Shown: positions 7,918 through 19,071 of the stretch, one piece after another | Numbering within the stretch: position 1 is the stretch's first letter | Layout: every line of letters begins with the position of its first letter | NCBI GenBank assembly: GCA_022865705.1 | Contig: JALHTG010000053.1 | Location: forward strand, 1 to 59,245 | Reading direction: 5' to 3' | DNA length: 59,245 bases | Origin: Candidatus Bathyarchaeota archaeon | GTDB lineage: Archaea; Thermoproteota; Bathyarchaeia; 40CM-2-53-6; JALHTG01 | Program-made: the position numbers and the translations under genes | The notes under the pieces: model-generated | Seen by the model: only the letters and a program-made list of their open reading frames with translations | What the model was told of the DNA's origin: nothing | The model's database searches: none

Positions 7918-8592
7918 CTAGCCTTCTAGTTGGAGGGCGATCGGCTCATCGGTCTTGAGTGGAGTTTGAGCAACAGATTTTTGCCCCGTCGCCTCAGCAG
8001 GCTTTTCTATCTTCTCCATCGCCCTCGACAGGTCCTTCCTTTCCTCAATTAGAGGCTTTAGATTTGGTTCTATTGCGTCGCACGCGACAGTTAGGGCCCT
8101 GTCGTCGACTATGCCTGCCTTGTATTCCATCTTCACGCTTACCAAGAATCTGATCAGGTCGTCGACCTGACGATCAACTTGCCCTGATCGTTTCTTCAAT
8201 CCTTCGATTAGATCTTGTTTTCTACGGTTCAGTTCCTCCAACGTCGTCCCCTGTTTCCTTCGTAGCTCCTCGTAGATGTTCGCCGGTATTTGCCTGTCCT
8301 TCAGCAAATCTCCTAGCGCTTGGATCCTTCGAGTTACACGATCTAGTTCCTTTTGGATGAGTTCTGATGACACCTTCCAGTCCGGAATGAGAACAACCTC
8401 CCCTTTGTTGATGACTATGTGCTCACATAGGTACTGTCCTAGGTTTCCGCTGCCATGTTCGACGTGAAGGGTCTTGAGTTCACCGAAGTCGTCGATCCCG
8501 AGGCCTATGATCTTCCCTATTTTTCTCCCATAGGTATCTTTCAGGTCCTTACCAAGGAAGCTTTTCAGTTCTTCCTCAGAGACGTATGACAA
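7918..8592 (-). CDS. cdvA: CdvA-like protein (second copy)
   Basis: A 224-residue protein with an N-terminal PRC-barrel-like domain (FLGKDLKDTYGRKIGKIIG) and a long charged coiled coil (about residues 75-190). This is the CdvA layout: CdvA polymerises at mid-cell with DNA or membrane and recruits ESCRT-III through a C-terminal peptide. The tail TPLKTDEPIALQLEG may be such a peptide. It is the last gene of the nine-gene Cdv operon, 33 bases after an ESCRT-III gene, so a CdvA-ESCRT-III pair occurs at each end of the operon. Confidence 0.83.
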   Translation of the reverse strand: MSYVSEEELKSFLGKDLKDTYGRKIGKIIGLGIDDFGELKTLHVEHGSGNLGQYLCEHIVINKGEVVLIPDWKVSSELIQKELDRVTRRIQALGDLLKDRQIPANIYEELRRKQGTTLEELNRRKQDLIEGLKKRSGQVDRQVDDLIRFLVSVKMEYKAGIVDDRALTVACDAIEPNLKPLIEERKDLSRAMEKIEKPAEATGQKSVAQTPLKTDEPIALQLEG

Positions 8593-8625: not shown

Positions 8626-9240
8626 TCATAGGAGCTTGGAAGTCGTCCCTTCGGTTGAGGCTGTTGGCAACTCCGGGAATTTCTCCTTGACTTGTTGCTC
8701 AGCAAATGCTGCTGCTTCTTCCAGTATTCTTTTTCCCTCTTCGGTGGGCACGTCTACCCTTGTCGTATTTCCGGTTGCTTGTCCAATGTCTAGAACCATA
8801 TCTGACAGCGATTCGTCAACCTCAACTAACTTGACCGATATGTCTGGCATGACGTTTGACAATTCTGTTCTGACTGTTCCGACGACTCTCTTTAAAGGAG
8901 CCATTTGGTAAGCGATCTCGCCAAATGTCTTGATGCCTTCCAACCTTAGCACAACTCTTTCCAGTGCAAACTGACTATTGAGAGAAACCTTTGCGATTTT
9001 GCGAATCTGCGCGCATTCTTCCGCATAGATCTTTGCTCGCTGAACGTCATTCTGCCTTACCGCCGACAGACATTTGTCATAGAGGGCTCTATCTCGGGCC
9101 TCCAGTTCTCCCGACGCCCTTTCGAGCCTTGCCAGTTGCAGCTGAAGCTTGTGCGTGGTTTCTGTGAGTCGCTGTTTCATTGGCTTCGGCGATATCGCTT
9201 CCTTTATCTTGTCCCTCAAGGACGTTCGATTTCGAAACAT
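8626..9240 (-). CDS. ESCRT-III (CdvB-type) protein without winged helix
   Basis: A 204-residue Snf7-type helical protein. Helices 1-2 are basic (KEAISPKPMKQRLTETTHKL) and the RAKIYAEECAQIRKIAKVSL region is typical of archaeal CdvB paralogues. The tail AEQQVKEKFPELPT is shared almost word for word with the other two ESCRT-III proteins here and looks like a MIM2-type ligand for the MIT domain of Vps4. It lacks the winged helix. It is placed 11 bases after the ABC ATPase gene and 33 bases before the second cdvA. Confidence 0.87.
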   Translation of the reverse strand: MFRNRTSLRDKIKEAISPKPMKQRLTETTHKLQLQLARLERASGELEARDRALYDKCLSAVRQNDVQRAKIYAEECAQIRKIAKVSLNSQFALERVVLRLEGIKTFGEIAYQMAPLKRVVGTVRTELSNVMPDISVKLVEVDESLSDMVLDIGQATGNTTRVDVPTEEGKRILEEAAAFAEQQVKEKFPELPTASTEGTTSKLL

Positions 9241-9251
9241 CTCAAAACCTC

Positions 9252-9947
9252 CTATGATTGGGAAGCCATCATAATCCGGGGTCTCACGATCGGTATCTCG
9301 CGGCTCGCCATTCTTGCCAGACTCAGGCTGTTAGTCGCCATGACTATTGTTCCTTTCTGGAAGTAGTGAATTCCCCTAAGCAGGGGGGCCAGTACATTTA
9401 GTGCCGACGCATCAAGGCCGCCTGTGGGTTCATCCATAAGCAGGAGGCTTGGTTCCGTCACAAGAGCTCTGGCAATTGCGACCTTCTTGTTCTCGCCTGC
9501 GCTTAGTGCAGTTGGATAATCGTAGGCTTTTCGCGTGAGTCCGAAGAACTCCAGAATCTCACCAGTTCTGCGTATCCGTTCAGATTCCTTGGCGCCCTGA
9601 ATAACCAAAGGGAGTTCAACGTTTTCGAAGACGCTTACATTGGTCAGTAGTCGGGATTCCTGAAAAACCATGCCTATGTGGCGACCCCTAAATTCCGTCA
9701 TGCTTGGGTCATTCATTAGCGTTACATCGTTGCCGAGGACCGTCACCTTCCCTCCACTTGGCGCTTCTAGGCCAGCTATTATGTTGATTAGAGTCGTCTT
9801 GCCGACGCCGGTCGGGCCAGTTATCGCTGCGAAATCACCTTCTTCTATCTCAGCGCAAAGTTCGCCGAACAAAAAGATCTTTCCAAGTTCCGTTTCGAAT
9901 ATTTTCGTTAGATTCTCGACTCTAACTATCGGCTCGCTAGTCAACAT
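9252..9947 (-). CDS. ABC transporter ATPase, FtsE/LolD/MacB class
   Basis: A 231-residue ABC ATPase. It has Walker A GPTGVGKTT, a Q-loop (MVFQESRLLTNVSVFENVELPL, typical of the FtsE/LolD/MacB group), the signature LSAGE where LSGGQ is usual, Walker B LLLMDEPTGGLD, and an H-loop position occupied by MATNS, so the switch histidine seems replaced by Asn. The seven-base overlap with the FtsX-like gene indicates a two-component transporter. Bacterial FtsEX regulates division. Its position inside a Cdv operon suggests a similar role but does not prove it. Confidence 0.85.
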   Translation of the reverse strand: MLTSEPIVRVENLTKIFETELGKIFLFGELCAEIEEGDFAAITGPTGVGKTTLINIIAGLEAPSGGKVTVLGNDVTLMNDPSMTEFRGRHIGMVFQESRLLTNVSVFENVELPLVIQGAKESERIRRTGEILEFFGLTRKAYDYPTALSAGENKKVAIARALVTEPSLLLMDEPTGGLDASALNVLAPLLRGIHYFQKGTIVMATNSLSLARMASREIPIVRPRIMMASQS

Positions 9948-10441
9948 CTCAACACCTCTGCAACCCTAAAATGTAGAATTCTTCTCACGGCCACTGAGCC
10001 CCCGCTGAAAGACGATATGGAAGAAACAAGCAACGTGCCCCCCACAACTTCAGTCGATAGCAGGGAATATTCCGCGCTAGTTGATGCGATGCAGTACCCC
10101 ATAGCTGTGCCGAGGAGGCATCCCAGGATCGTCAGCAGAGCCACTCGTAGGAGGAATACGCGTAGTATGCTGGATTGTTTTGCACCTAGAGCTCTCATGA
10201 CTGCCACCTCTTTCCTCTTTGATGATACTTGGAGTGAAATCGTAAGCATTGCGACCAGGAAGACTCCGAGGAACAGTCCAGTAGCGGATAGAGCCAGTGA
10301 AAACCAACTAACTGAGCAGCTAGACCCTAGAATTAGTGCTGCAGCTGTGGAAACCGTTATTTCGGAAGCTGCCAAAACGTCTGGCATATTGAAAGATGAG
10401 AAGAGATATCTGCTCAGGTTCATAGCTCTGCTCGCCTCCAT
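9941..10441 (-). CDS. minimal FtsX/MacB-type permease
   Basis: A 166-residue membrane protein with the FtsX-superfamily signature KRKEVAVMRALGAKQSSI, the cytoplasmic coupling helix, between TM segments. The C-terminus RILHFRVAEVLRC matches the usual R-x-x-x-x-x-VAEVLR end of the family. Full FtsX or MacB permeases have four TM segments and a large extracytoplasmic domain. Here only about three or four TM segments fit and there is no large outer domain, so it is a stripped-down permease. It overlaps the ATPase gene by 7 bases and the Lrp gene by 22. Confidence 0.72.
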   Translation of the reverse strand: MEASRAMNLSRYLFSSFNMPDVLAASEITVSTAAALILGSSCSVSWFSLALSATGLFLGVFLVAMLTISLQVSSKRKEVAVMRALGAKQSSILRVFLLRVALLTILGCLLGTAMGYCIASTSAEYSLLSTEVVGGTLLVSSISSFSGGSVAVRRILHFRVAEVLRC

Positions 10442-10935
10442 GTTGTATTGTTCCTCTTTTCCCCAGTTTCTCGAGCGAGCATTCTCAGAAATTCCGGGAC
10501 CTGCCCGTATTCATAGCTCTTGATTACTGACGCCGTGTATTCAATCTTTACATCGAGTTCCTTCATCCTTGACAGGATCATCTCGACATCTGATTTGTTC
10601 TTGCCAACAAAATACACCAGAGTCTCCGGCGTTCCAAGAAAACTGGTGACCTTGACTGCCTGAGGAATCGAGGCGATCTGTCTGAGTACCTTATCTCTTT
10701 CTGAATGATTCCCGATGCTGCCTGCTATGTAGACCTGCTCTGATAGACCAAGTTTCTCAAAGTCGAGATCGAGTGTATATCCTTTGATGATGCCCGTCTG
10801 TCTGAGTTTGTTCACTCGATACGCTACAACGTTTGGGTGCAGGTTGAGCTTCTTCCCGATCTCGACAAACGAAATTCTTGCGTCAGCACTTAGCTCAGCA
10901 AGAATTCTTAGATCTGATTCATCTAGATTTGGCAT
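10420..10935 (-). CDS. Lrp/AsnC-family transcription regulator
   Basis: A 171-residue protein with an N-terminal winged helix-turn-helix (DESDLRILAELSADARISFVEIGKKLNLHPNVVAYRVNKL, residues 4-43) and a C-terminal RAM-like alpha/beta domain (residues 65-145). It lies between the Vps4 gene (10-base gap) and the FtsX-like gene (22-base overlap). It is therefore cotranscribed with the division genes and may autoregulate the operon or sense a ligand for the ABC module. That link is inference from position only. Confidence 0.87.
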   Translation of the reverse strand: MPNLDESDLRILAELSADARISFVEIGKKLNLHPNVVAYRVNKLRQTGIIKGYTLDLDFEKLGLSEQVYIAGSIGNHSERDKVLRQIASIPQAVKVTSFLGTPETLVYFVGKNKSDVEMILSRMKELDVKIEYTASVIKSYEYGQVPEFLRMLARETGEKRNNTTWRRAEL

Positions 10936-10945
10936 ATTCTACCTC

Positions 10946-12085
10946 CTAGCTTGCCAAGTAGTGTTCGGACCACTCCTGGAACATCAGAAGACCCTTATCA
11001 GACACTGTTTTCCCACGGCCGGCAACAGCATCAAGAAAATCGGTCATCGTTATTTGCCTGGGCTTGGCGGTTGGGTCAATGTCCTCATGTGCTTCAAAGA
11101 ATTCTCGCACAACCTTCGTCTGCACGATCTGGAATATGTCGCGAATATCGCTCCCTGTGCGCCCTTCGGTCAATCGGGCCAGTTCATCGAAGTCCACATC
11201 ATCTGCGACTTTGACATTCCGAGAGTAGATTCGAAACATTTCTAGTCTCGCTTTTGTGTCCGGCGGAGGAACATAGAGTCTCTTTTGGAATCTTCTAATG
11301 AACGGCTCATCTAGCACCCATGGCTTGTTTGTCGCCCCGATGACATAGACAGGAGACTGCCTGTTCTTGTCAGAGATCCCATCCATCTCCTTCAAGAATT
11401 GGTTTCTAGCTCTGACCTCTCCGCCTACCTCGTGGCTCCTGACCCCCATTACGGAATCCAATTCGTCAATAAATATGATCACTGGTCTCTCTGATCTGGC
11501 CATAGCTCTTGCCTGGTCAAACAGCTTCGCGACGTTTCTCTCAGATTCGCCTAGCCATTTTGATATGATCGAGGGAGAGTCGATGCAGTGGAACGTGGCA
11601 TCAATCTCAGTCGCTATAGCAGCAGCCAGTAGCGTTTTTCCACAACCCGGTGGACCGTAGAATAGAATTCCTCTAGGCCATCCAAGTGGAAAAAGATCAG
11701 GCCTCCTTGAAGGGTAGATTATTGATTCTTCTATAGCTCTTTTGGCATCATGCAGGTTTGCAATGTCTTCCCAGTTGACATTAAGCTTCTGCAGGACCGA
11801 GGTCCTTTCTGGTGTTTGATCGATCAGCATACCTTGCTGCGGCAGCGATGGGCCATTTCCACGCTGCAGATCGAGAATTCTTCCATTGAGCAGCTGGACC
11901 TTTTCTGCGTAGACCCTGTTCACCGGGGTTCCGGGATATAGTTCACATAGTTTGAGAAGGATCTCAACTGCTCTCTGGTACTTTGTGATCGCCATCCCTC
12001 TCGATCCTTGCTTGTCAAGAGAGATGGCCTCAGTTACATTTCTTGCCGCGATTTTCTCCAAGTCCTCGTATGCCATCTGTGTCAC
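10946..12085 (-). CDS. cdvC: CdvC / Vps4-type AAA ATPase
   Basis: A 379-residue ATPase that disassembles ESCRT-III polymers. An N-terminal MIT domain (about 1-75, with KQGSRGMAITKYQRAVEILL) precedes one AAA domain: Walker A GPPGCGKTLLAAAIA, Walker B IIFIDELDSVMG, second region of homology IGATNKPWVLDEPFIRRF with two arginines, and a Vps4-type C-terminal helix. It follows the winged-helix CdvB gene by 33 bases. The single Vps4 gene would have to serve all three ESCRT-III proteins of the operon. Confidence 0.95.
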   Translation of the reverse strand: MTQMAYEDLEKIAARNVTEAISLDKQGSRGMAITKYQRAVEILLKLCELYPGTPVNRVYAEKVQLLNGRILDLQRGNGPSLPQQGMLIDQTPERTSVLQKLNVNWEDIANLHDAKRAIEESIIYPSRRPDLFPLGWPRGILFYGPPGCGKTLLAAAIATEIDATFHCIDSPSIISKWLGESERNVAKLFDQARAMARSERPVIIFIDELDSVMGVRSHEVGGEVRARNQFLKEMDGISDKNRQSPVYVIGATNKPWVLDEPFIRRFQKRLYVPPPDTKARLEMFRIYSRNVKVADDVDFDELARLTEGRTGSDIRDIFQIVQTKVVREFFEAHEDIDPTAKPRQITMTDFLDAVAGRGKTVSDKGLLMFQEWSEHYLAS

Positions 12086-12118: not shown

Positions 12119-12961
12119 TCACCGGAGCACTATCCTCCTCTCGTCACGAAGCATCTCAACGGCCTTCTCAACGTCTCCCCTTTCCACCCCTAGTTCCTCA
12201 GCGCACCTGGCGAGGTTCAGCTTTCCGCCTTGTCTCACATTGTTGATGATGTATTCAAAGACCAGAGAGGAAAGACGCTGGCCTGAATGCTCAGTGATCT
12301 CTGGCACCGTCTCCTGAATCTCTCGAGCCGGTTCATCCGGGGGATCTGAGATCGGATCCAGTCCTTCAGGTTCTGGTACCTTCTCGATGGGCTGTTCTGA
12401 TGATGGAATCGGCGGGAACTGCTCCCTTACCCTCTGTTCGGCATAAGCGCTGGATTCCTCAAAGATCTTCTTCGCTTCGTCATCCTGTGAAGCCATGTCA
12501 TAGTCTTTCAATTGAATGAATTCAGTTTCCTTGACAGTGTCGTGCAGCATGGAGTGCACGATTCCCAGCTCGCTTGCCACCTCAGGAATCACACCTTCGA
12601 TCTTCCCCTTCGTTTCCTCGATCACACTAATGACAGGCATCAGCTGGACAAGCATTATCCCCAGTTGCCACACCGTTTCGAGACGAATGATCGCCCTCTC
12701 CAGACCTATTTCGCTGGCATGGACGATTTTTGCCATCTTTCTGATCTCAGAACACTGGCTGGCATACAGTTGTGCTCGAGCAAAATCCTTGGAAAACTGA
12801 GCTGCAACGCACCTTTGGAATATCTCGCTATCCCTCTGCTGGAGTCGGAGGATCGTTTCCTGAAGTTTCTGATATTGGAACTTCAGACGGTGCAGTGCAA
12901 CTATGATTCTCTCTTCAAGGGGTTTCTTCTTCCCCCAGATTCGTTCAACGAAAAATGAGAT
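12119..12961 (-). CDS. cdvB: CdvB, ESCRT-III with C-terminal winged helix, apparent ATC start
   Basis: The first ATG in frame (12736) would delete helices 1-2. The frame upstream of it encodes a full CdvB N-terminus: VERIWGKKKPLEERII, then LHRLKFQYQKLQETILRLQ, then QLYASQCSEIRKM. No ATG, GTG or TTG exists between the in-frame TAG at 12968-12970 and 12736. The codon ATC at 12959-12961 follows AGAGGT by eight bases and gives 280 residues. The C-terminal part has a proline-rich tail (REQFPPIPSSEQP, MIM2-like) and a winged helix (LSSLVFEYIINNVRQGGKLN onward) that binds CdvA in known systems. An ATG-to-ATC sequence error is the alternative. Confidence 0.85.
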   Translation of the reverse strand: MSFFVERIWGKKKPLEERIIVALHRLKFQYQKLQETILRLQQRDSEIFQRCVAAQFSKDFARAQLYASQCSEIRKMAKIVHASEIGLERAIIRLETVWQLGIMLVQLMPVISVIEETKGKIEGVIPEVASELGIVHSMLHDTVKETEFIQLKDYDMASQDDEAKKIFEESSAYAEQRVREQFPPIPSSEQPIEKVPEPEGLDPISDPPDEPAREIQETVPEITEHSGQRLSSLVFEYIINNVRQGGKLNLARCAEELGVERGDVEKAVEMLRDERRIVLR

Positions 12962-12969
12962 GGCACACT

Positions 12970-12975
12970 ACCTCT
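12970..12975 (-). promoter_or_regulatory. Shine-Dalgarno deciding the CdvB start
   Basis: The minus strand reads agaggt directly after the TGA (12976-12978) of the preceding cdvA. It is eight bases before ATC 12961-12959. No other strong ribosome-binding site lies near the in-frame ATG at 12736. Confidence 0.6.
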
Positions 12976-13716
12976 TCAGAGGCTTGACGTGCCCGTGAAC
13001 TTCACAGGAAGTAGCTTGCCCGTGTTCAGAGCATTTGTCTCCAGCACTATGTCGCTCATCGAGCTTTGTTGAAGCCTCCTGTCCGCGCTCGATCTTCTCA
13101 GTGAGGCTATGTTGATTGAAATCTGCTCAATATCTCTTTTCGCGGAAAAGGCTCTGTCGAGTCCATTTTCGATCGAGTCCACCGCTATCTTGTATGCCTG
13201 TGGATCGATTTCACCTGAGGCCAGTTGCATTTTATTGGTTGCGAGAAACATCTCAAGCTCTCTTATCTGGTGATCGAGCTCTGCGTTGACCAATGAGAGT
13301 TTCTTCGTGAGGTTTTCTCTCCGTGTTTCCAATTCATTCAAGTTGCTGTCATGATTCCTGTGAAAATCCTCGTATATCTCTGGCTGAATATCTCCTTGTC
13401 TGTGTAGATCTGAGAGAGCCTGCATCCTCTTTACGGCCAACTCAAACTCTGTCCTCAGGTTGTCTGCTTCAAGCTTCCAATCATCAAGAAGCTTGATCCC
13501 CCTCTCATCCACAACCAATCGAGAAGAAGGACAGTTCAGAAACTGCCCGTTCCCCAGCTCCACCTCGACGGATGTTACTTGGCTCCTAACATCAGTCAAT
13601 ATTCCGACTATTCTTCCTATGGTTGCACCATATTGATTTGAGATGCTGCGTCCCAGAATGTGTTTCGCCGCGTCCATCATGAGATTCATGGCAGCATATC
13701 CTCGCCGTCCCGACAT
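12976..13716 (-). CDS. cdvA: CdvA-like protein (first copy)
   Basis: A 246-residue protein with an N-terminal PRC-barrel-like domain (ILGRSISNQYGATIGRIVGI) followed by a long coiled coil (about residues 85-215) in which Glu, Arg and Leu dominate. The C-terminus (SDIVLETNALNTGKLLPVKF) may hold the short segment that binds the CdvB winged helix. The gene lies 8 bases after one ESCRT-III gene and 14 bases before the ATC start of cdvB. ATG 13689 (MNLMMDAAK), preceded by CGAGGAT, is an alternative start. Confidence 0.87.
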   Translation of the reverse strand: MSGRRGYAAMNLMMDAAKHILGRSISNQYGATIGRIVGILTDVRSQVTSVEVELGNGQFLNCPSSRLVVDERGIKLLDDWKLEADNLRTEFELAVKRMQALSDLHRQGDIQPEIYEDFHRNHDSNLNELETRRENLTKKLSLVNAELDHQIRELEMFLATNKMQLASGEIDPQAYKIAVDSIENGLDRAFSAKRDIEQISINIASLRRSSADRRLQQSSMSDIVLETNALNTGKLLPVKFTGTSSL

Positions 13717-13724
13717 CTCACTTG

Positions 13725-14372
13725 CTACAGGAAAGACTGTGAAGAACGCTCTTGATCGGTCTGAGTTGCTGTTGGAGTTGGTAGCTCAGGGAACCTCTCC
13801 TTCATTCTCTGCTCTGCTATGGCACTGGCCTCCGTGAGTATCCGTTGCGCCTCTTGACTAGTTATCTCAGGCTTGGAGATCGTACCTGTCAACTGCCCTG
13901 CCTCCATGACTATCTCATTCAGGGTCTCTCCAACCGAGTCCAATTCGTAGGAGACCTCGGGCATGACTCCTGAAATCTGCGTTCTCAGAGAGCGAATAAC
14001 CCCAGCAACAGGCGCCATATTCGATCCTATGTCCCCGAACTCCTGCACAGCCTCAAGCTTGAAGGTGGCTCGCTCAATAGTGAGCTGACACTGAAGAGTG
14101 ACCTTCGCGATCTTCCTTATCTCAGCACACTCCTCAGCATACATCGACGCTCTCGCAACGTCTTTCGAAATCTGCGCATCCACACATTTCTTGAACAGCT
14201 CTTTATCCCTCTGTTGCATCTTGAGAGTGGCAAGCTCAAGCTTGTTCTGTTGTGCCCTCAGTCTGAACACTGCGGCAGAAATCTTGTCCCTTAGGGGCTT
14301 GGACGACCGAATACTCCCTCCTATCCGCGCGAAGAAAGGTTCTTTCTCAGATTTGTTCCAATTCTTGGTCAT
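13725..14372 (-). CDS. ESCRT-III (CdvB-type) protein without winged helix, first gene of the Cdv operon
   Basis: A 215-residue Snf7-like protein. The N-terminal basic helices include SKPLRDKISAAVFRLRAQQN, followed by the RASMYAEECAEIRKIAKVTL segment. The tail AEQRMKERFPELPT nearly matches the one in the paralogue at 8626-9240, pointing to duplication of a CdvA-ESCRT-III unit. An AGGAG lies about ten bases before the ATG. It leads the operon behind a TATA element near 14461-14469. Confidence 0.87.
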   Translation of the reverse strand: MTKNWNKSEKEPFFARIGGSIRSSKPLRDKISAAVFRLRAQQNKLELATLKMQQRDKELFKKCVDAQISKDVARASMYAEECAEIRKIAKVTLQCQLTIERATFKLEAVQEFGDIGSNMAPVAGVIRSLRTQISGVMPEVSYELDSVGETLNEIVMEAGQLTGTISKPEITSQEAQRILTEASAIAEQRMKERFPELPTPTATQTDQERSSQSFL

Positions 14373-14460: not shown

Positions 14461-14469
14461 AGTATAAAG
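14461..14469 (-). promoter_or_regulatory. TATA box of the Cdv operon
   Basis: The minus strand reads ctttatact here. It predicts a transcript start near 14437 and a leader of about 65 bases before the ATG at 14372. A second weaker element (ggttaaatc, 14425-14433) lies closer. Confidence 0.5.
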
Positions 14470-15341: not shown

Positions 15342-16097
15342 ATGGATCGCGTACCTACTGGGGTGAAGGGTCTTGACGAGCTTCTGGGAGGAGGCATTCC
15401 CAAGGAGAGATGCGTCTTGGTCGTGGGCAGCCCCGGTTCTGGAAAAACGACGTTGGCTATGCAGTTTCTTCGTGAAGGAGCTCTAGGTGAAGAGAACGGT
15501 CTTTATGTTACGATGGATGAATCGCCTGATCAAATCAAAGAAAACCTCTCGGGCTTTCGATGGGATCTTGATAGATTGGAGCGAGAAGGAAAGTTGTTCT
15601 TCATAGATGCGACACTAATCAGACATGTCCGAAGCAAGGACACTCACTACGGTGAACAGAATGTCCTATTGGATACGGCAGGTGTGTTCCCGCAGTTGAC
15701 TTTGAAAGAGCTAATCCGAACCGTGCACAAGGTCGTCGATGAGGAAAAGATCCAGAGGTTAGTTGTTGATCCTGTCACGTCGATTATGCTGAGGTACGAG
15801 AGAGCATCAAGCAGGAGAAAGGCAATGCTTGTGCTTTTTGACGCTTTGGAGGCAACTGGGTGCACCTCTTTCGTTGTAACAGAATTGCGGACAGCGATGC
15901 TTGATAGGGCATTTCAGCTTGAGGAATTTCTATCTCAGGGGGTAATCTTGCTTCATACGATCCCGCATGAGGGAAGCATTGTAAGGGCGATCCAGATTGA
16001 GAAGATGAGAGGGATTCCTCACGATATACAGCTAAGGCCCTATCAGATCACGGGCGAAGGGATAGAGGTGTTCTCCAAGGACCGTGTCTTCCCCTAG
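15342..16097 (+). CDS. KaiC/RadA-like (GvpD-type) RecA-fold ATPase
   Basis: A 251-residue single-domain KaiC-family ATPase. It begins with the family opening DRVPTGVKGLDELLGGGIP, has Walker A GSPGSGKTTLAMQF, the YVTMDESPDQI segment and Walker B-like LVVDPVTSIML. Such proteins are common in archaea as signalling or regulatory ATPases; targets are unknown. It ends four bases inside the convergent transmembrane KaiC protein gene, so two KaiC-type ATPases sit tail to tail. Confidence 0.88.
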   Translation: MDRVPTGVKGLDELLGGGIPKERCVLVVGSPGSGKTTLAMQFLREGALGEENGLYVTMDESPDQIKENLSGFRWDLDRLEREGKLFFIDATLIRHVRSKDTHYGEQNVLLDTAGVFPQLTLKELIRTVHKVVDEEKIQRLVVDPVTSIMLRYERASSRRKAMLVLFDALEATGCTSFVVTELRTAMLDRAFQLEEFLSQGVILLHTIPHEGSIVRAIQIEKMRGIPHDIQLRPYQITGEGIEVFSKDRVFP

Positions 16098-17983
16098 GAC
16101 GCTTTTCTGGGCGAGAATCGTTCCTTATCCCCGTGGAAGACAATACCGTCCGGAGCCTCAATCGAAAACTCTATCCATCTCCGCGAATGCTTCCTGCCGC
16201 GAATTTTCTTTATTCGCAATCGCCTGGAAGGAACCCCTCTCTTCTCGCGTGTTTCCAACTCGATAATGCAGTCGGATAGTCCCTCGAGTCTCGATAACAC
16301 GTCTTTGTCTAACCCAGTCCCAACAGAGAAATACAAGCTTCCTACCTGGCCTTTTATTCTCGCTCCGATCGCATGTATGAAGGTCATTATGGGATCTGGT
16401 CTGAGTGATGTGAAAAGTGGGGCTAGAGAATCAAGGAAGAACGTTGTTCCTTCTCCCAAGGCGTTAGCGGCACTTGAGATCTGGATACCGAGATTAGTGA
16501 AATCTGTCAGGACTTGGACGCTGTACTTCTCAGGAGAAACCTTTCCTGCGGCACCAGAGTAGCAGTCAATGAAGTAGAGATGCCTTCCTTCGAATGCTGA
16601 GACATCCAAGCCCAGTTGCTTCATGTCCTCGACGATCTTTCTAGGAAAATCGTTGTTGGTCACATAGACACATTTGTTTCCTCTAGACAGTCGGTCGTGC
16701 ATCATCTTCTCCATAAGAACTGTTTTGCCTGACCCTGGAGATCCTATCACCATAACCGCAGCAGCCGTCAACGCTTGTCCACCAAAGAGATTATTGAGAA
16801 GATCAAAGGAAACTTTTCGAGTCTTCAGTCGATACTTCGAAGTCAAGAGAATAGCACCTATTACAATTACAGCGGAGGCTGGAGCCCCATAGTAGAACCA
16901 AGGTTGCAGGACCGGCAATCTGGCGACATATTCTGTCGGCCCAGACACAGTGATATCCCTTCGGTTATGTTGTGACGACTCATAGCTGAGGTCAAGGGTG
17001 TAGTTTCCTTTCGGAACCTGACTGAAGATCAAATGCCCATCAAATTCAGTTCTATTCAAGCTCAATGGTTTGTTACCTGCAACCAACTCAACTCCGGCTT
17101 GGCCCAAGGGCATCCCAAAGAAATCCTGAACTATGATCATGAGATCATACACTTCGCATCTGACAACTAGCTCTCGGTCTGCAGTTAGGCTTATGTTTCT
17201 TGTTTCGTTCACACCAGTCCCCTTCCAGTAGACCTGAACATCATACAGACTTGTGTTCTCCGTGGAAGGAACAATTGCCTCTACAGAGCCATCGGCAGTT
17301 GTGGTCCCCGTCCAGACTTTCACTTGCTCCTGGATAATGGTCACATTTGCACCTTTCATCCTCTTGTCTGAGAAGTCTTTCGCAGTTAGAGTCATTGTGT
17401 AGTAGTATCTCTCCACAAAAGAGATTGCCATCTGACTTGGCGCACGACTGTCGTCCCAATAGAGGAAGGCTGGTATGTTCACCCCTTTCACTACTATCTC
17501 CAAAATGAGGGTTGAGCCTGCGTCAATGGTTCGCATGACTGGCCCTATTGAGAAGAAGTAAGGTCGTTCGTTTAGTACGGATTCCACCAGTACTGATGCC
17601 TCGATACCACACACATACCGAACCTTCCCATCACTAGTTCTTTCCACCAAAGTCGCATTGACTGTACCCATGACGGGGTTAGTGGCCCTCAGCCAAAGTT
17701 GGAATGATACAGGCCCACCGATTCTTACAGCTCTCCTGACTGGTGGACGGAGAACAAAAGCAGTTGCCTCTGTAACGTGTATCCATCTTTGGATTCCATA
17801 TGGTGGGTCTGTGCTCAGGATTCTCTCTGAAGGCGAACCTACTGAGTAAGCTGTATGAAGGTAAAATACTGTAGGGGATGCGGCAACAGTTTGTGAAAAT
17901 CCTTGCGGTATCATCCCCGAGATAATACCAACTAACAGAACACCCCAGACCAGAGGTGCAAGCTGTACGCAACGCGCCGTAAT
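16094..17983 (-). CDS. transmembrane protein with extracytoplasmic beta domains and a cytosolic KaiC-like ATPase, apparent ATT start
   Basis: Counting from ATG 17914, residues 1-335 are extracytoplasmic and include two Ig- or carboxypeptidase-regulatory-like units (KDFSDKRMKGANVTIIQ; DFFGMPLGQAGVEL). One TM segment follows at 338-360, then a RecA/KaiC-like domain with Walker A GSPGSGKTVLMEKM and Walker B TTFFLDSLAPL. The ATG at 17914 would remove the signal peptide. Upstream in frame lies TARCVQLAPLVWGVLLVG, a convincing hydrophobic signal, and the only start-like codon before it is ATT 17981-17983 after GGGGGAA. The gene follows the archaeosortase by 14 bases. Outside sensing coupled to an internal ATPase is a reasonable inference. 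Confidence 0.8.
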   Translation of the reverse strand: MTARCVQLAPLVWGVLLVGIISGMIPQGFSQTVAASPTVFYLHTAYSVGSPSERILSTDPPYGIQRWIHVTEATAFVLRPPVRRAVRIGGPVSFQLWLRATNPVMGTVNATLVERTSDGKVRYVCGIEASVLVESVLNERPYFFSIGPVMRTIDAGSTLILEIVVKGVNIPAFLYWDDSRAPSQMAISFVERYYYTMTLTAKDFSDKRMKGANVTIIQEQVKVWTGTTTADGSVEAIVPSTENTSLYDVQVYWKGTGVNETRNISLTADRELVVRCEVYDLMIIVQDFFGMPLGQAGVELVAGNKPLSLNRTEFDGHLIFSQVPKGNYTLDLSYESSQHNRRDITVSGPTEYVARLPVLQPWFYYGAPASAVIVIGAILLTSKYRLKTRKVSFDLLNNLFGGQALTAAAVMVIGSPGSGKTVLMEKMMHDRLSRGNKCVYVTNNDFPRKIVEDMKQLGLDVSAFEGRHLYFIDCYSGAAGKVSPEKYSVQVLTDFTNLGIQISSAANALGEGTTFFLDSLAPLFTSLRPDPIMTFIHAIGARIKGQVGSLYFSVGTGLDKDVLSRLEGLSDCIIELETREKRGVPSRRLRIKKIRGRKHSRRWIEFSIEAPDGIVFHGDKERFSPRKAS

Positions 17984-17997
17984 GTGTTCCCCCGTCG

Positions 17998-19071
17998 CTA
18001 TTCTGACAATCGTATTGGCTTGTCTGCCATCTTTGCTCCAGTCGAAGAGGATTTGGTCAACGACCTCGCGCGCCCGCTATAGATGACGTCTTCCACCTTG
18101 ACTACAACAAGTAGGTACACAACGGCCCAACACATGAACAGTATTTCTCCAGCAGATTCGTGGAAGGCTATCGCCTTGCTCACCCCTTCTGTTGCTATGA
18201 GGTAACAGATAAGATAGATTCGCAACAAGTTGACAGAGAAGGTTCCGACCGCCCCCGCGAAAGAGTAGTAGATCTTTCTGTTTCGGGGTGCATCAATCTT
18301 TGCAACCATAACAGCTATGATCATGAAGAAAATAATCATGCTATGAACGCCGACGCAAGGCCAGAAGAAGTCTACTGCACCCTTAAACCATTCCACCCCT
18401 TCCTTTGTGACAAAAATGTACAACCTCGACGACTCAGGTTGCCATACAGTCTTTATTCCGGAGAAGCCCAGCAGGGATGCCACGATTGGGACGATCACGA
18501 GAACTATCGCTTGCATTGGGCCTAAAGAAGCGTACGGAAATGCAGCATCAAGAAAGAACATCAAGGCCATTCCTAAGAGGTAGGCCACTGGAGTTATCAT
18601 CTTGAGAAGATTTTTGCGCCCATATGCAGAAAGGAACAGGATCAATATGTACGAGACAAAAACAATATGCTCCCACATCGTAACCCAACTGAACATCTTG
18701 GGCATTTCAGGCAACCCGAGCCGTATTCCTGCTTGTGCAACGATGCTGTTCAAGTTCAGAAAGAACACGCCGAAGTAGTAGAATACGACGAGCAACGCTC
18801 CTAGCATCCAGGAGATGGCAACATTCCTGCCTTGCTTTAGCCGAAGTTCCTTTCTAGCATCGTACCATTCGATTACTATGAAGAAAGCGGCGAACAGCAG
18901 ACCGCTTCTTCCTTCGTTCCAACCTGAGATAAAGCTTGTCGGCTCGATTGTCGCGAGAAACAGGACCGGAGCGAGACTCATCACAAGAAATTCGAATCCT
19001 AATGGCAGAACGCCCGCTATCCTCGACAACATAGCATTTTGATGTCTAGAGGAGGATTCTTTGGCGTTCAT
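17998..19071 (-). CDS. archaeosortase/exosortase family protein
   Basis: A 357-residue membrane protein with about eight TM segments. The three catalytic residues of the exosortase/archaeosortase family are visible in order: Cys in FWPCVGVHSM, Arg in VNLLRIYLI and His in AFHESAGEILF. These enzymes cleave C-terminal sorting signals and transfer the protein to a lipid or glycan anchor. The gene sits among secreted proteins, glycosyltransferases and the TM-KaiC protein on the same strand. Its substrate motif is not identified. Confidence 0.88.
   Translation of the reverse strand: MNAKESSSRHQNAMLSRIAGVLPLGFEFLVMSLAPVLFLATIEPTSFISGWNEGRSGLLFAAFFIVIEWYDARKELRLKQGRNVAISWMLGALLVVFYYFGVFFLNLNSIVAQAGIRLGLPEMPKMFSWVTMWEHIVFVSYILILFLSAYGRKNLLKMITPVAYLLGMALMFFLDAAFPYASLGPMQAIVLVIVPIVASLLGFSGIKTVWQPESSRLYIFVTKEGVEWFKGAVDFFWPCVGVHSMIIFFMIIAVMVAKIDAPRNRKIYYSFAGAVGTFSVNLLRIYLICYLIATEGVSKAIAFHESAGEILFMCWAVVYLLVVVKVEDVIYSGRARSLTKSSSTGAKMADKPIRLSE

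Follow-up and report, generated by a model that had tools for sequence, protein, structure and literature searches.

The Cdv/ESCRT division operon of some Bathyarchaeia holds an ABC permease-ATPase pair which, because it lies within the ESCRT operon and always in the company of a second CdvA, is probably an unrecognised membrane part of the division apparatus. We give about even chances to the more specific proposal that the pair is dedicated to the Cdv operon in the three families that carry it (f1, f3 and f4) and acts as an ATP-gated membrane anchor or regulator of a ring of this second CdvA (hereafter CdvA-2) and ESCRT-III. A function in division is suggested by the gene context described below.

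The window, that is, the whole stretch of 59,245 nt analysed here, comes from a Bathyarchaeia MAG of 2.17 Mb that is 91.6% (~92%) complete and is the sole f1-family genome in the samples searched. Its minus strand carries a run of nine genes, from 14372 down to 7918, in which neighbours overlap or lie at most about 35 nt apart:

13725..14372, minus strand: ESCRT-III (CdvB1/B2-like), first gene of the run (NF041005, E=8e-67)
12976..13716, minus strand: CdvA-1, with a PRC-barrel-like N-terminus and the CdvA coiled coil (PF18822, E=1.1e-17)
12119..~12943, minus strand: ESCRT-III with a C-terminal winged helix (CdvB-like; NF041005, E=1.2e-45; NF041008, E=4.6e-38)
10946..12085, minus strand: Vps4/CdvC AAA ATPase with an MIT-like N-terminal region (PF00004, E=7e-38; Vps4_C and MIT matches weak)
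10420..10935, minus strand: Lrp/AsnC-type regulator (PF13404, E=1e-13)
9941..10441 (start at 10423 likelier), minus strand: minimal FtsX-like permease with four TM segments and no outer domain (PF02687, E=3.4e-11)
9252..9947, minus strand: FtsE/LolD-class ABC ATPase lacking the switch His (PF00005, E=3.5e-31)
8626..9240, minus strand: second ESCRT-III of the CdvB1/B2-like type (NF041005, E=3.7e-49; PF03357 below cut-off)
7918..8592, minus strand: CdvA-2, a paralogue of CdvA (PF18822, E=4.5e-18)

The locus groups CdvA, ESCRT-III and Vps4 genes, as identified by PF18822, by NF041005/NF041008 and by an AAA domain with Vps4-like termini, respectively; the NCBIfam equivalog cut-offs for CdvA and CdvB are not reached by the operon proteins. 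An orthologue of the first ESCRT-III also opens the operon in relatives, and the Vps4 protein is 49-62% identical to other Bathyarchaeia Vps4 sequences. A sequence-only reading had described an ATPase gene (9252-9947) and a permease gene (9941-10441) that overlap on one strand between Vps4/Lrp and an ESCRT-III gene, and this arrangement is borne out. The permease and ATPase genes overlap by 7 nt, the Lrp and permease genes overlap as well, and gaps of 11 nt and 33 nt separate the ATPase from the downstream ESCRT-III and the latter from CdvA-2. These overlaps and short gaps suggest that the pair shares one transcript with the Cdv genes. For the permease, the ATG at 10423 is a likelier start than 10441, since it has an SD-like GGAGG in front of it and overlaps the Lrp stop as ATGA, and since relatives start at the aligned position. 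About 90 nt upstream of the operon's first gene, TTTATACT at window positions 14461-14468 (minus strand) is a candidate archaeal TATA box. The frame read for the winged-helix ESCRT-III (12119-12958, minus strand) has no ATG, GTG or TTG start at its N-terminus: it opens past a stop near 12970 and shows GAGGT followed by ATC, which may reflect either a non-canonical start or an assembly error.

To place this operon among its relatives, we compared 80 Vps4 loci from named genomes and then 60 profile-annotated operon regions picked from a survey of 257 genomes of the class. The order Vps4-Lrp-permease-ATPase-ESCRT-III-CdvA2 is found in 24 genomes from three families, namely the window (f1), soil 'BA' Bathyarchaeota (f3) and the QZM, RS and CSMAG MAGs (f4). 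Wherever the contig is long enough, the operon tail in these families reads Lrp-permease-ATPase-ESCRT-III-CdvA2, with the exception of one f3 genome (G036), in which the genes after the last ESCRT-III are metabolic. Between close species pairs, the permease has a dN/dS of 0.12-0.26 and the ATPase one of 0.02-0.27, from which we conclude that both genes are maintained; this purifying selection and the recurrence of the order in 23 further genomes argue that the neighbourhood is not due to chance. We also looked for Cdv-bearing relatives that carry the pair elsewhere and found none: the pair is fixed in the Cdv operon in all three families, and a search with the permease profile across 398 genomes of the phylum returned no short permease outside the Cdv locus. 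One MAG (G029) contains two Vps4 operons of different type (contigs C92 and C85), the second of which is near-identical to that of G034; contamination is the probable cause.

The pair is absent from seven genomes of the same order: G036 (f3), G004 and G009 (f5), G001 and G006 (f2), and G005 and G010 (f6). In all seven, Lrp or Vps4 directly adjoins the last ESCRT-III, where the tail stops, and CdvA-2 is gone as well; Cdv division in general can therefore do without the pair. The best ATPases of five of these genomes (G001, G006, G009, G010 and G036) all fall outside the clade of Cdv ATPases, and none of the other sampled families of the class has the pair at this place. The earlier suggestion of a new kind of archaeal division system is thus overstated, the module being absent from the order's other lineages and from the remainder of the sampled class. 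It is a lineage-restricted accessory on top of an ordinary Cdv core.

All 24 genomes with the pair have CdvA-2, and it is missing at this place from each of the 19 genomes without the pair that were compared; a survey based on PF18822 agrees. The two are separated by an ESCRT-III gene that stays where both are missing, so that two stretches flanking a retained ESCRT-III are gained or lost jointly. On the tree this co-occurrence requires only 2-3 changes (1-3 independent pairs in a sign test) and is therefore not significant. CdvA-2 forms one clade (99 SH-aLRT), as do the Cdv ATPases (support 100/98) in a tree of ATPases from twelve genomes of the order, to which the window ATPase and E. coli FtsE and LolD were added. 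Given the identical insertion site, the one ATPase clade and the one CdvA-2 clade, we favor a single gain, with the pair already in the order's ancestor and two or three joint losses thereafter, over repeated gain. Soil f3 genomes also encode several further divergent CdvA-like proteins (for example, G002:C28:6930-7262 and G022:C24:21817-22149), some of them just upstream of the Cdv operon on the other strand and others elsewhere. Published surveys (PMC10936438; PMC8970359) likewise note that Bathyarchaea have additional CdvA-like proteins encoded away from the locus.

Among NCBIfam models of 187 families, the ATPase matches FtsE best (167.5 bits), with LolD also among the best, and its best PDB kin include FtsE, MacB, LolD and YtrE. 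The window protein shares 33-49% identity with other Cdv-operon ATPases. Walker A, Walker B, the Q-loop and the signature are intact in f1, f3 and f4. The H-loop, however, reads MATNS in the window, the switch His being replaced by Asn in f1 and f4 and by Ala in f3; the 14 Cdv ATPases included in the tree all read TN or TA here, which extends to the whole clade the earlier remark that no switch His was obvious. E. coli LolD, in contrast, retains the H-loop His, as does FtsE (TH in both), and the H-loops read in other ABC ATPases, of the window genome and of the other genomes, have TH or SH. In FtsE this residue (H197 in the S. pneumoniae protein) stabilises the transition state (PMC7468199). 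The f3 Cdv ATPases (L162 and other loci) sit on a long stem of 1.56 changes per site and score against the window ATPase no better than non-Cdv ABC ATPases do; we read this as rapid evolution after the split. Their H-loop has Ala where f1 and f4 have Asn.

The permease is the sole product among the nine with several clear TM segments. It scores 43.7 bits against PF02687 (FtsX; cut-off 25.5), a profile matched individually by just 6 of 17 permease relatives, and its best NCBIfam matches are LolCE and FtsX. The AF2 model of the window protein (pLDDT 73) predicts an N-terminal helix, TM1 (residues 22-40), TM2 (47-74), a coupling helix (76-84), TM3 (89-121), TM4 (127-156) and a C-terminal helix, and the f3 relative from locus L038 is predicted with the same plan (pLDDT 85, pTM 0.79). 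This is the MacB/FtsX layout, in which four TM segments are combined with a major coupling helix between TM2 and TM3 and a minor one at the C-terminus (PMC5985334), minus the outer domain. Where E. coli FtsX has about 130 residues between TM1 and TM2, and MacB a large outer domain (PMC5985334), the window permease has a predicted 6-residue turn and its relatives a short loop. The outer domain, already noted as lacking in the window, is in fact lost clade-wide, whereas the coupling-helix motif is kept in f1, f3 and f4. A literature search returned nothing relevant on archaeal FtsX permeases devoid of an outer domain.

Foldseek searches of the PDB retrieved FtsX, YtrF and LolE first with the window model (E 0.25-0.66) and FtsX first with the L038 model (E 0.022, probability 1.00), the top match of the latter being FtsX in ATP-bound FtsE(E163Q)X; NosY and heme-exporter permeases were also among the matches of the permease models. 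As E-values of 0.25 (window) and 0.022 (L038) are modest, weight was put on the consistent top matches and on probabilities of up to 1.00. The permease sequence profile reaches one PDB molecule only, LolF (E=5e-4), and hhalign comparisons of this profile with single E. coli FtsX and LolC sequences are weak (probability 1.6 and 48, respectively), so that the homology claim is carried by the fold search and by PF02687. The permease also evolves faster than its operon neighbours.

The pair resembles FtsEX in several respects: an FtsE-class ATPase is combined with an FtsX-fold permease, including TM1-TM4, the coupling helix predicted between TM2 and TM3 in both the window and L038 models, and the minor C-terminal helix, and the two genes overlap and are located among division genes. 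It is nevertheless not FtsEX. The ATPase attains 167.5 bits against the curated FtsE cut-off of 264.85 bits (TIGR02673), and the permease 32.1 bits, over its C-terminal core only, against the FtsX cut-off of 255 bits (TIGR00439); the extracytoplasmic TM1-TM2 domain, the partner-recruiting feature of FtsX, is absent, and the Cdv ATPases lack a complete ABC catalytic set for want of the switch His. In addition, the permease gene precedes the ATPase gene, and the setting is an ESCRT operon with no known peptidoglycan-hydrolase partner. The pair is rather a type VII-like ABC module of the Cdv operon. It has the MacB/LolD/FtsE-class ATPase and PF02687 permease of the type VII class, but no outer domain to which motion could be transmitted as in type VII mechanotransmission. 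LolCDE/LolDF, MacB, YtrEF and YbbAP likewise share the fold class of the ATPase and of the permease C-terminal domain (PF02687); they have large outer domains, and none, to our knowledge, has been linked to ESCRT.

Neither the window genome nor G008 yielded any FtsZ candidate (PF00091), although both keep the pair; these absences are those of incomplete MAGs (91.6% and 96% complete). FtsZ was not found in the f2, f5 and f6 genomes, whereas most f3 and several f4 genomes have it, as does G036, which is without the pair. The pair does not track FtsZ. We therefore rejected, as highly improbable, a true FtsEX orthologue that is partnered with FtsZ and lies beside the Cdv genes by coincidence, even if its best NCBIfam matches, the FtsX fold match of the better permease model and the FtsZ genes of many f3 and f4 genomes speak in its favor. 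FtsX couples to the outer envelope, or recruits a periplasmic partner, via its extracytoplasmic domain; with that domain absent, and FtsZ not found in the window genome and G008, the direct parallel initially drawn with FtsEX, linking a ring to the outer envelope, is not supported.

As a mechanism, we propose, by analogy with type VII systems, a complex of two FtsX-type four-TM permeases and two FtsE/LolD-type ATPases, which would reside in the membrane at the division site. The ATPase dimer would close on ATP and its movement would be relayed via the conserved coupling helix. Since no domain reaches the cell exterior, the output may be directed to the membrane or to partners on the cytosolic side, most likely CdvA-2 and ESCRT-III, and the module would then be a membrane anchor or timing switch for the ring. 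That the switch His is lost suggests a slow turnover of ATP, hence a switch rather than a pump. A precedent for cytosolic output is offered by the cytosolic half of FtsEX: E. coli FtsEX is a division regulator, and a mutation of the FtsE ATPase stops constriction by way of cytoplasmic FtsA (PMC7343993). Taken as a whole, the reading of the pair as an ABC-type, ATP-gated integral membrane ESCRT component that lacks outer domain and switch His and anchors or times the CdvA-2/ESCRT-III ring is tentative, and we hold it at somewhat less than an even chance. A tethering role at the ring is ascribed to CdvA itself, which would make an additional anchor not strictly necessary.

The main rival to the anchor or switch reading is a lipid remodeller at the division neck. 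It would extract membrane lipids or hydrophobic peptides, or shift them laterally, as LolCDE does with lipoproteins, and thereby allow ESCRT-III to constrict an archaeal membrane. The four-TM LolC/FtsX-type core of the permease, its LolF profile match and the LolE/LolC matches found by Foldseek all suit such a role, as does the ESCRT gene context, and the type VII system YbbAP-TesA is described as extracting hydrophobic compounds from the inner membrane (PMC12646458). We consider this reading unlikely: the outer domain that known type VII systems use for substrate hand-on or contact is missing, the absent switch His argues for low turnover, and the operon includes neither an acceptor nor a lipid enzyme.

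Lrp/AsnC regulators often adjoin transporters, and the tight Lrp-permease-ATPase overlaps might point to an ordinary small exporter controlled by the adjacent Lrp, the whole being an Lrp-ABC cassette inserted in the Cdv operon with no division role. However, Lrp is found at this place in f1, f3, f4, f5, one f2 genome and one f9 genome, and it remains where the pair is missing (G001, G004, G009 and G036), so that Lrp and the ABC genes are not one cassette. That the pair tracks CdvA-2 rather than Lrp, keeps its position unshuffled over large divergence and has lost both outer domain and switch His makes such an exporter quite unlikely. The same two losses, together with the rapid divergence of the permease, could also be those of a degenerate transporter relic retained by operon structure, but the low dN/dS of both genes and the retention of Walker A/B, Q-loop, signature and coupling helix in all three families leave this reading hardly credible. 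The anchor or switch reading is the one we prefer.

TACK ESCRT is described in surveys as a minimal CdvA/B/C system (PMC10936438; PMC8970359). In the present operon, CdvA, the ESCRT-III genes (both with and without the winged helix) and Vps4 follow the order usual for Bathyarchaeia; the difference lies in the addition of the ABC permease-ATPase pair, Lrp, a third ESCRT-III and a second CdvA. Text searches of PMC10936438 and PMC8970359 showed no mention of an ABC pair or FtsX in Cdv loci, and no earlier report of the module was found in the main text of openly accessible papers. How the ancestral ESCRT machinery was tethered to the membrane 'remains unclear' according to a domain survey (PMC8970359), and a conserved membrane ABC module encoded among the Cdv genes is a concrete candidate for ring tethering or timing at the membrane. 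If this holds true, the pair would be the first ABC component reported for any ESCRT system, within the literature searched, and a separate instance in which cell division has recruited an FtsEX-like module: two unrelated ring systems, FtsZ and ESCRT-III, would each have drawn in FtsEX-type ATP switches. It would also imply that the core of a type VII permease remains functional when the outer domain, the carrier of its known mechanism, is absent.

Two further genes of the window lie on the minus strand above the operon. An exosortase/archaeosortase-like protein (PF09721, 32.8 bits) is encoded at 17998-19071, a few genes upstream of the Cdv operon, and in the product of 16094-17914 a carboxypeptidase-regulatory-like repeat region is followed, at the C-terminus of the fusion, by a KaiC-type ATPase domain.
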